NCBI RefSeq assembly: GCF_023699475.1
Contig: NZ_JALXFV010000008.1
Span: forward strand, 227,442 to 282,984
Source of the DNA: Halomarina rubra
GTDB lineage: Archaea > Halobacteriota > Halobacteria > Halobacteriales > Haloarculaceae
Length of the DNA: 55,543 nt
Direction of reading: 5' to 3'
Part shown: positions 2,883 through 5,865 of the stretch, in pieces
Layout: each line of letters begins with the position of its first letter
How positions within the stretch are numbered: position 1 is the stretch's first letter
Made by a program: the position numbers and the translations under genes
Notes under the pieces: model-generated
Database searches by the model: none
Told to the model about the DNA's origin: nothing
The model's input: the letters and a program-made list of their open reading frames with translations, nothing else

Positions 2883-4505
2883 ATGACCGCACCCGCGGAC
2901 CTCGTCGTGACGAACGCCGAGGTCCACACGCTCGCGTCGCCCGACGAGACCCATGAGGCGCTCGCGGTTCGCGACGGCGAGGTCGTCCGCGTCGGCGACG
3001 CCTACGAGATGCAGTTCCTCGTCGGGGCCGACACCGAGGTGCTCGACTGCGAGGGCCGCGTCGTCCTCCCGGGGTTCGTCGACGCCCACACCCACCTCCC
3101 GATGGTGGGCCGTCGTCTCGTCCACGCCGACCTCTCGACGGCCGACTCGCCCGCCGACGCCGTCGACCTGCTCGCCGAACGGGCCGCCGAGACCGACGAC
3201 TCGGCCGACGACGACACCCCCGAAAGGGTGACCGACGACCCGGCCACCGAGTGGGTCCAGGGGTTCGGCTACGACGAGAGCGTCTGGGCGGAGTCGCGCT
3301 ACCTCACCCGCGCGGACCTCGACGCGGTGAGCGAGACCCGTCCCGTCGTCGCCTTCCGCGAGGACATGCACACGGCGGGGCTGAACTCCGTCGCGCTCGA
3401 CCGACTGGCCGAGTCGATGCCCGAGGCCGACGTCCAGCGCGAAGGTGGCGACCCGACGGGCGTCGTCGTCGAGGAGGCCGTCGACGCGGTCTGGGACACT
3501 GTCGACCCGGACGTCGGCGAGATGCGGTCGCTCGTCCGGGCGGCCCGTGACTTCGCGCACGCCCACGGCGTAACGGGAGTCCACGACATGGTCCGTAACA
3601 GCGAGGCCCCGCGCGTCTACCGGGAACTCGACGCCGCCGGCGACCTGGACCTCCGGGTCCGCGTCAACTACTGGACCGACCACCTCGACTCGCTCGTCGA
3701 CCTCGGGGCGCGGACGAACCACGGCAGCGAGTTCGTCCGGACGGGCGGCGTCAAGAGCTTCACCGACGGCAGTTTCGGCGGCCGGACCGCGAAGCTCTCG
3801 GAACCGTACGCCGACGCGCCCGAGCGTGAGGGCGACGACCCGAGTGACGCCGCGGACGCGACCGGCCAGTGGGTCGTCACCCCCGACGAACTGGAGGCGT
3901 ACGTCGAGCGGGCCGACGCCGCCGACCTGCAGTTCACCGCCCACGCCATCGGTGACGAGGCGATTCGGGCGGTGCTCGACGCGTACGCCGGCACGTCGGC
4001 CCCGGCGGAACTGCGCCACCGCGTCGAGCACGCCGAACTGCTCAGCGACGACCTGATAGCGCGGTTCGCGGAACTGGGCGTCGTCGCGTCGGTCCAGCCG
4101 AACTTCCTGAAGTGGGCGCGCGAGGGCGGCCTCTACGACGAGCGCCTCGGCGTCGACCGGGCGCGCTCGACCAACCGCTACCGCGACCTGCTCGACGCGG
4201 GCGTCCCCCTCGCGTTCGGGAGTGACTGCATGCCGCTCGGCCCGCTGTTCGGTGTCCAGCAGGCCGTCACCGCACCCGCGGACGGCCAGCGCCTCTCCGT
4301 CACCGAGGCGCTCCGAGCCTACACCAGCGGCGCGGCGTACGCCGGGTTCGACGAGGACCGTCTCGGCACCCTGACCGTCGGCAAGCGAGCGGACCTCGTC
4401 GTCCTCGACGAGTCGCCGTGGACGGTCGCTCCCGAGGCTATCGGCGACGTTTCGGTCACCCACACCGTCGTCGACGGCCGCGTCGTCGCGCGGTTCGAGG
4501 ACTGA
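2883..4505 (+). CDS. Amidohydrolase family 3 protein, YtcJ-like
   Basis: Metal-dependent hydrolase of the amidohydrolase superfamily (540 residues, normal for the YtcJ/amidohydro_3 group). The first metal motif is VDAHTHLP near residue 63. It is followed by the family-typical VKSFTDGSFGGRTA block, metal-site histidines in FTAHAIGDEAI and RHRVEHAEL, and the late Asp in FGSDCMPLGP. The C-terminus ADLVVLDESPW closes the composite beta-sandwich that begins at the N-terminus. The substrate is unknown; relatives are deposited as N-substituted formamide deformylases or exoenzyme regulators with little proof. It is probably intracellular because no signal peptide is seen. A TATA-like CTTTTGTC lies about 30 nt upstream. 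Confidence 0.9.
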   Translation: MTAPADLVVTNAEVHTLASPDETHEALAVRDGEVVRVGDAYEMQFLVGADTEVLDCEGRVVLPGFVDAHTHLPMVGRRLVHADLSTADSPADAVDLLAERAAETDDSADDDTPERVTDDPATEWVQGFGYDESVWAESRYLTRADLDAVSETRPVVAFREDMHTAGLNSVALDRLAESMPEADVQREGGDPTGVVVEEAVDAVWDTVDPDVGEMRSLVRAARDFAHAHGVTGVHDMVRNSEAPRVYRELDAAGDLDLRVRVNYWTDHLDSLVDLGARTNHGSEFVRTGGVKSFTDGSFGGRTAKLSEPYADAPEREGDDPSDAADATGQWVVTPDELEAYVERADAADLQFTAHAIGDEAIRAVLDAYAGTSAPAELRHRVEHAELLSDDLIARFAELGVVASVQPNFLKWAREGGLYDERLGVDRARSTNRYRDLLDAGVPLAFGSDCMPLGPLFGVQQAVTAPADGQRLSVTEALRAYTSGAAYAGFDEDRLGTLTVGKRADLVVLDESPWTVAPEAIGDVSVTHTVVDGRVVARFED

Positions 4506-4609: not shown

Positions 4610-5521
4610 ATGAGGCCTATCGAAGTGGACGAGGAGAAGGTCGGGCGGGACGGCCCGGCGGACGACTGGAGCGTCCAGCGCCGACGGCTCTTACAGGCGG
4701 CCGGTGCCGCCGCGGCGCTCACCGCGCTCGGTGGGACCGCGAGCGCGGCCGGCGGAGACGACGAGAAGGAGGGGAAGGGCTACGGAAAGGGTGGGAAGTA
4801 CGGTCGTCCTCGGCGCGGGAAACGCGCCATCGACCCGAACCTCGGCTACGTCGCGCTGACGCCCGACGAGCGACTCCCCGTCGAACCGGACCACGAGGTC
4901 CAGATTCTCATCAATCCGCCGAGCGACCCGGAGAACCCGATTCCGGAGTTCTACTACCAGCCGACCGGACTCGCCGTGGACGTCGGCGACGTCGTCGCGT
5001 TCCGGTACGTGACACCAGGGCACACGGTGTCGTCGTACCACCCGTACGCGGGCCGCCAACTGCGCGTCCCCGAACGCGAGGACGGGGGACTCGCGTTCTT
5101 CTCGTCGCCGTACCTCGGGGCAGGGGCGACGTGGCTGTACTGCTTCGACCGGCCGGGGGTCTACGACTACTACTGCGCACCGCACGAGATATTCGGCCAC
5201 GTCGGGCGCATCGTCGTGGGCGAGGCGACCGAGACGCCGCCCGTCCCGGACCCGTGTGCACCCCCCGAACCGCCCGAACCACCGGAGACGGAGGAGGGGA
5301 CCACCGAGAACGGTGAGGGTGGCGACGACGGCGACGGTGGTGCGGGTGGCGAACCCGAACTCCGGCCGCCGGCGTTCACCGCCGCGATCGTCCTTCGCGA
5401 CGAGGCGCTCGACCCGCAGAACATCGTCGACGAGGGCGCGGTGCTGTGGGAGGACGTCGCTCCCGAGAACAAGCAACTGTTCGTCCAGGTGGTCCCGCCG
5501 GAGGTCTGTTCGGTCGAGTGA
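4610..5521 (+). CDS. Tat-exported cupredoxin (halocyanin/plastocyanin-like) protein with atypical axial ligand
   Basis: Predicted extracellular or membrane-associated type-1 copper protein, 303 residues. Residues 23-47 form a twin-arginine signal (QRRRLLQAAGAAAALTALGG). Residues 48-72 are Gly/Lys-rich. The cupredoxin domain spans about 85-205: His138 (PGHTV), then Cys189 and His192 in YYCAPHEIFGHVGRIVVG. In halocyanins the next ligand is Met in C-x2-H-x4-M; here that position is His197. An extra Cys178 lies close by. The C-terminal part (about 210-255) is a Pro/Glu/Gly-rich linker followed by about 50 residues that may fold separately. It could be an electron carrier or a copper-binding structural protein. 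No cognate oxidase is adjacent. Confidence 0.82.
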   Translation: MRPIEVDEEKVGRDGPADDWSVQRRRLLQAAGAAAALTALGGTASAAGGDDEKEGKGYGKGGKYGRPRRGKRAIDPNLGYVALTPDERLPVEPDHEVQILINPPSDPENPIPEFYYQPTGLAVDVGDVVAFRYVTPGHTVSSYHPYAGRQLRVPEREDGGLAFFSSPYLGAGATWLYCFDRPGVYDYYCAPHEIFGHVGRIVVGEATETPPVPDPCAPPEPPEPPETEEGTTENGEGGDDGDGGAGGEPELRPPAFTAAIVLRDEALDPQNIVDEGAVLWEDVAPENKQLFVQVVPPEVCSVE

Positions 5522-5583: not shown

Positions 5584-5757
5584 ATGGTCTCGCTCCAGAT
5601 CGGTTCGGTGTTCGTCCTCGTCTTCCTCGCGCTGGCGGTGCTCGCACCCGTCGCCCTCTACGCGCTCGTCCGCTCCGAACACGACCAGCGGTCGGCGATG
5701 TCCCGGAGCGACGGCGAACGTGTCGCTCGACGGGACTCACGGGACGAACGTCGCTGA
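5584..5757 (+). CDS. Small single-span membrane protein (57 aa)
   Basis: A 58-codon frame (ATG 5584, TGA 5755-5757) encodes one hydrophobic helix (about residues 5-28: IGSVFVLVFLALAVLAPVAL) followed by a charged, Arg/Asp/Ser-rich tail rich in RR and RD pairs. It begins 62 nt after the cupredoxin stop. Function unknown. The clean helix-plus-polar-tail organisation and haloarchaeal codon use support a real gene, but no family was recognised. Confidence 0.6.
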   Translation: MVSLQIGSVFVLVFLALAVLAPVALYALVRSEHDQRSAMSRSDGERVARRDSRDERR

Positions 5758-5865
5758 AGCGTTACTCTCTCGTCCCCCTACCGACGATTCCGACGTCGTT
5801 TAGCGACGCGTGTCTTCTATCGCCTTTCGTTCGTGTCCCACTCGTTAGAGCACTACTCTGAAGAA

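Follow-up and report, generated by a model that had tools for sequence, protein, structure and literature searches.

The cupredoxin locus and the layout of its product

The window, i.e., the whole 55,543-nucleotide stretch of DNA analyzed here, encodes a cupredoxin of 303 amino acids downstream of an amidohydrolase gene. The features of this locus are the following (window coordinates, with the basis of each assignment in brackets):

1950-2825: formate/nitrite transporter family protein (PF01226), second gene before the cupredoxin gene (Pfam)
2883..4505, + strand: amidohydrolase (PF07969), upstream (Pfam; neighbor comparison)
4610..5521, + strand: cupredoxin gene, 303 aa, ATG start, TGA stop (open reading frame; PF00127 above cut-off)
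4667..4750, + strand: Tat-like signal region, residues about 20-47 (aligned members; weak TAT_signal match)
4886..5224, + strand: cupredoxin domain, residues 93-205 (structure model and fold comparison)
5021..5023, + strand: His138, expected copper ligand, kept in 147 of 149 family sequences (alignment)
5039..5041, + strand: His144, in a family-specific insertion after His138, kept in 143 of 149 (alignment)
5141..5143, + strand: Cys178, Arg in both closest orthologs (sequence, ortholog alignment)
5171..5173, + strand: Tyr188 (TAC), directly preceding the copper Cys (20 of the 24 axial-His proteins have His here; the window protein is among the other four)
5174..5176, + strand: Cys189, expected copper ligand, in 149 of 149, the rows having been chosen by a Cys here (alignment)
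5183..5185, + strand: His192, expected copper ligand, in 149 of 149 (alignment)
5198..5200, + strand: His197 (CAC), axial position, Met in 124 of 149 (alignment)
5234..5359, + strand: low-complexity Pro/Glu/Gly linker, residues 209-250 (sequence; pLDDT drop in the model)
5255..5257, + strand: Cys216, likely disulfide partner of Cys300 (co-occurrence in 86 rows)
5375..5473, + strand: conserved helical tail, residues 256-288 (its first helices correspond to those at the C-terminus of pseudoazurin)
5507..5509, + strand: Cys300 (sequence, co-occurrence)

Two orthologs from the same genus, one of them from Halomarina oriensis, are 66 and 73% identical to the window protein and share its histidine at the axial copper position (CGPHEVFGH and CAPHEIFGH). 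A further relative from the same genus, in the MAG QS_5_70_17 (L004/L046), has the usual methionine. The amidohydrolase gene is found upstream in all four loci. The transporter gene is upstream in the window and in both His-type orthologs, and the MAG contig of the Met-type relative ends short of its position. Downstream, nadABC is present in the window and in H. oriensis, with no match in the stretch examined for the other ortholog. A short open reading frame between the cupredoxin gene and nadA (5585-5758) encodes a hydrophobic stretch and has no Pfam match.

The original prediction described an exported cupredoxin, and a Tat-like signal region and a cupredoxin domain were both found in the protein. 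The TAT_signal match is below its cut-off (14.9 vs. 22.7 bits), the pair R24-R25 is invariant in the 15 family members aligned, and a lipobox Cys is absent from the signal region of the window copy. Judging from its Tat-like signal, the protein is probably exported.

The part behind the low-complexity linker had been proposed to be a separate, novel C-terminal domain. It is instead a short helical tail, whose first helices lie inside the range aligned with the C-terminal helices of pseudoazurin, and we rejected the proposal. Equivalents of Cys216 and Cys300 tend to occur together: among 86 rows, 17 have both, 66 have neither, two have only one, and one has no recognized tail. This pattern fits a disulfide, which is likely to link the two residues in the window protein. 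An extra cysteine, Cys178, had also been counted as a novelty, and was dropped as a feature because both closest orthologs have an Arg at this position. Longer versions of the protein exist. A long extra C-terminal region, missing in the window copy, is present in L003 (1483-3066) and in L004 (1453-3039); in L003 its end is a CHRD domain according to Pfam, and L004 looks similar by eye. The H. oriensis ortholog carries a C-terminal CHRD domain (Pfam, E 1.3e-24), and the window copy is without it. The Pfam scan found no CHRD match in the other His-type ortholog, though it is longer too.

Fold and copper-site residues

The protein matches the Copper-bind family PF00127 above the gathering cut-off (27.8 vs. 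21.2 bits). It had been expected to be of the halocyanin type. The cupredoxin part of this assignment stands, but the match to the halocyanin model TIGR03102 is below the curated cut-off (28.4 vs. 93.8 bits, E 1.3e-6), so that we do not retain the halocyanin label, and the nearest solved fold is that of pseudoazurin. The pseudoazurin model TIGR02375 is also below its curated cut-off (27.7 vs. 109.85 bits). The five NCBIfam matches at E up to 1 do not include a nitrosocyanin model, if the library has one.

We modeled residues 71-303 with AlphaFold, using 41 aligned rows. The mean pLDDT is 91.3 and the pTM 0.86; pLDDT reaches 97-98 for residues 181-200 and drops to 61-70 at model residues 161-180, which are residues 231-250 of the protein, in the linker. 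A model of this sort contains no metal. The best Foldseek matches of the model are pseudoazurins (E about 1e-8), and the purple cupredoxin 5fc9 is also among the fold matches. VIA-align superposed model and pseudoazurin over 121 residues (Z 14.7, rmsd 2.5, model range 23-202), and both hallmarks of the pseudoazurin fold, the beta barrel and the C-terminal helices, are present in the predicted structure. When the family profile was compared with PDB sequences, pseudoazurin also came first (4e-16). The model of a relative, L055, which has a His at position 188, has a pLDDT of 86.4 and matches pseudoazurin at Z 15.4.

The window protein carries the motifs GHTVSSYH and FDRPGVYDYYCAPHEIFGHVGRIVVG, and its copper loop reads YYCAPHEIFGHVGR. 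In the translation, H138, C178, C189, H192, and H197 all lie where the original prediction had placed them. The central point of that prediction, a histidine in place of the axial methionine with the other three ligand residues kept, is borne out by the profile alignment with PDB sequences, in which H138, C189, H192, and H197 stand opposite the His, Cys, His, and Met of the pseudoazurin copper motif (residues that we take to be 40, 78, 81, and 86). Hence, the two His and one Cys of a type 1 copper site are present, the usual axial Met is absent, and the geometry of the site, which we read from the alignment, would place His197 at the axial position. Around these residues, R152 is kept in 146 of the 149 family sequences and G196 in all of them. 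A sequencing slip at residue 197 is very unlikely, since both same-genus orthologs share the His, all three bases must change to turn Met (ATG) into His (CAY), and all 24 His-type genes use the codon CAC.

Spread and history of the axial histidine

Among the genomes searched, 54 of 59 match the window protein at E up to 0.001, and a scan of named genomes gave 42 loci. From 169 distinct aligned rows we kept the 149 that cover at least 120 of 191 positions and have a Cys at position 189. The axial residue of these 149 distinct sequences is Met in 124, His in 24, and Thr in one; these numbers cover sequences gathered among the matches listed and, as weaker and unlisted matches are left out, 24 in 149 is not a figure for all haloarchaea. 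The axial His is thus not confined to the window protein, being common to 24 family sequences. Its named bearers are Halomarina, Natronorubrum (two), Natronolimnohabitans, Natronosalvus, Natronobiforma, Salinadaptatus, Halopiger, Halobium, Halogranum, Halorussus (two), and a Natronomonas MAG. The single Thr-type sequence, L138, has a disturbed copper loop, with Gly before the Cys and no Pro. Four Met-type members with Trp before the Cys are found in bacterial MAGs of Trueperaceae (L081-L084), perhaps through transfer between domains. A Halostella protein (L070:5548-6765) has, by eye, an additional N-terminal cupredoxin-like stretch before the family domain.

The genome of the window has 16 Copper-bind matches. 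A motif search read seven of them as the Cys-x2-His type, six with Met and only the window protein with His; the others are unread or of another type. Outside the family, a halocyanin-like protein also has an axial His (L036, YFCEPHRGQGHLG), and it and a second haloarchaeal cupredoxin, L044, have Gly-His after C-x2-H (FCEPHRGQGH; FCIPHEMDGHGAVRMDG). The axial His may occur in further cupredoxin types. The pattern [FY]-C-x-P-H-x3-G-H, which misses proteins with His at position 188, matched 14 of 391 genomes of the class, to be read against 15 matches of the reversed pattern (a count by eye); five of these 14 loci read as cupredoxins (L034, L035, L036, L037, and L044). The pattern C-x-P-H-E-x2-G-H matched seven of 294 genomes of the phylum. 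The two non-haloarchaeal matches (L266 and L267) were discarded as short frames that are not cupredoxin-like, and viral contigs gave 34 pattern stretches with no relative among them.

To place the His-type proteins, we built a tree of 89 rows from which columns 188 and 197 were left out. The axial His corresponds to three changes on this tree, two of which are forced by starred branches, and the Halomarina trio is separated from the other His types by a 98/94 branch. A single clade of all 24 His sequences is rejected (AU test, p 0.0008). For the 21 His sequences from outside Halomarina, a grouping chosen once the tree was known, the test does not reject a single clade (p 0.073). As the 24 proteins are not a single clade, the axial His must have been gained or lost repeatedly, and the data support two or three such events, with either direction possible on the tree. 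The two non-Halomarina His clades share a genomic neighborhood, which weakens the case for their independence. The recurrence of the axial His in separate lineages suggests that it is a useful state.

Around the 24 His loci, two neighbors named by eye are frequent, a helicase-like gene (14 loci) and a second, Cys-rich gene (12 loci). A gene that looks ferredoxin-like by eye lies downstream on the other strand in eight of the 24, all in one clade (e.g., L055:8420-9052), and is a candidate for electron transfer in that clade. No clear partner or functional link was seen among the neighboring genes read by eye.

Position 188, directly before the copper Cys, differs between the two groups: it is His in 20 of the 24 axial-His proteins and in none of the 124 axial-Met ones. 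Its codon is TAC in the window and, in the 20 His188 genes, CAC in 19 and CAT in one; the step from TAC to CAC is a single base change. When we compared the 20 double-His with 61 Met rows, no other column tracked the swap fully; the next best, which lie in the tail and linker, reach a divergence of 0.72 of 1. The full separation at columns 188 and 197 is by construction, as these columns defined the two groups. The covariation of the two positions lies beyond a statistical test, since there are only two to three independent pairs, with which a sign test cannot reach significance.

Proposed copper site and comparison with known systems

From sequence and model together, we regard it as moderately probable that the window protein is a natural Cys-His3 cupredoxin with a pseudoazurin fold, acting as a one-electron carrier with a tuned potential. 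In such a protein, copper would be held by His138, Cys189, and His192, with His197 replacing the weak axial Met. The stronger axial nitrogen donor would render the oxidized site tetragonal and green, probably of type 1.5, instead of blue, and would favor Cu(II) modestly; protonation of the imidazole could perhaps make the site pH-sensitive. The carrier would most likely work outside the cell membrane, its potential tuned and not radically altered. We infer all of these properties, i.e., copper binding, ligation by His197, color, potential, partner, and role, from the letters of the sequence and what can be predicted from them.

Knowledge of axial-ligand tuning in the sources cited comes mainly from engineered mutants. 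A Leu-to-His change in the M. thermophila laccase gives a green tetragonal T1 site, lowers the potential by 30 mV, and reduces kcat tenfold, and bilirubin oxidase loses its copper when Met is changed to His (both PMC4323517). The Thermus laccase M460H has 371 vs. 357 mV and a 400-fold lower efficiency (PMC6487685). In azurin, the potential falls by 50-120 mV with an axial Asp or Glu and rises by 100-140 mV with bulky hydrophobic residues (PMC12071310); the variant M121H is termed type 1.5 in the title of a cited paper. The strong redox shift foreseen by the original prediction is therefore uncertain: an axial change can matter, as with Asp or Glu in azurin, but the shifts given for the axial-His laccases are small. 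Considering these reported potentials, a prediction of color and pH response is on safer ground than one of how large the shift would be.

It is also conceivable, though we think it unlikely, that His197 sits in the axial pocket without ligating, so that the protein would be a plain electron carrier with a normal blue His2Cys copper whose axial ligand is weak or missing. Axial residues of cupredoxins vary, the fold matches include the purple cupredoxin 5fc9, and the engineered M460H hardly moved the potential; against this, His is an excellent copper ligand that recurs at the axial position in separate clades, and the green color of the axial-His laccase (PMC4323517) indicates that it ligates there.

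A distinctly unlikely reading is that the Cys-His3 set binds zinc or a different metal, or takes up only Cu(I), to store or deliver it, and that the protein is no electron carrier. CysHis3 is a common zinc ligand set, which counts for this reading. The copper loss of the bilirubin oxidase mutant points the same way, since it implies that copper might be bound poorly at a Cys-His3 site, or a different metal favored. Against this reading stand the retained copper-site residues and cupredoxin fold, and the fact that most relatives are of the Met type with a normal copper motif.

The His at position 188 raises the question of a second site. We find it highly doubtful that His188-Cys189 and H144 form, in the sister clades, a second, NirK-like half site with a His-Cys bridge to the copper, which the window protein would lack: where nitrite reductase has a His directly before the copper Cys, it has Tyr188. 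The distribution of His188 speaks for such a site, and so does a whole-family profile alignment in which His144 and position 188 face the two second-copper histidines of haloarchaeal NirK, taking our assumed assignment of each NirK His to its copper. But that alignment is weak (probability 5%), the NirK spacing is off by one residue, and a profile of His188 proteins only (probability 3%) sets His188-Cys189 opposite His-Cys without setting His144 opposite the NirK histidine. Besides being weak, the NirK comparison is thus inconsistent on His144. Moreover, Met-type proteins, which lack His188, conserve His144 as well, the independent pairs are as few as stated above, and no third ligand was identified. 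The broader scenario would be that a natural haloarchaeal Cys-His3 centre, green or red, evolved more than once and, in most of these proteins, gained with His188 and H144 a second metal or proton-coupled site, NirK-like and with a His-Cys bridge, on the way to a redox enzyme. This is a long shot. If true, a simple electron carrier would have been rebuilt towards a redox enzyme, and the window protein, with its axial His and still with Tyr188, would represent the one-step form. Finally, an assembly error or a neutral one-off can be set aside as having a negligible chance, since the 24 His sequences are distinct, come from several genera, and include both close orthologs.

The Cys-His3 carrier thus remains our preferred reading. 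The recurrence of the swap in distinct lineages suggests that the window protein belongs to a naturally evolved, unusual type of copper site. Our search of the open-access literature, with most subscription journals outside its scope, met no account of such a cupredoxin with a natural axial His. A family with mostly Met and some His, including relatives beside the same upstream gene, amounts to a natural experiment, and matched His/Met pairs allow the comparison of color, potential, pH response, and electron transfer.

Among known systems, pseudoazurin (PDB 1zia and 2jkw, Z 14.6 and 14.7) shares the fold, including the C-terminal helices in the aligned range, the His, Cys, and His ligand positions, and the spacing C-x2-H-x4-X; the window protein differs from it by the axial His for Met, a six-residue insertion with His144, and the low-complexity linker before the helices. 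Halocyanin is likewise a haloarchaeal cupredoxin and its model matches weakly, but the score is under the cut-off and the window protein has the axial His. The Met-type haloarchaeal members of the family (e.g., L004/L046) have the same cupredoxin domain, linker, tail, and upstream amidohydrolase, and differ by the axial Met and a C-terminal region longer than that of the window protein. Nitrosocyanin is also a cupredoxin with a strong non-Met ligand set; its spacing is presumably C-x2-H-x4-H, with a Glu that we take to replace the first His ligand. Its ligand set is His2CysGlu (PMC9241007), and a 2014 source called it the only type 2 (red) cupredoxin with a detailed characterization (PMC4059628). 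In contrast to this set, the window protein keeps the first His (His138), hence the predicted Cys-His3. This expected set is that of the engineered axial-His sites, i.e., azurin M121H, the Thermus laccase M460H, and the M. thermophila Leu-to-His laccase. These are man-made, whereas the axial His of the window family is natural and recurrent.
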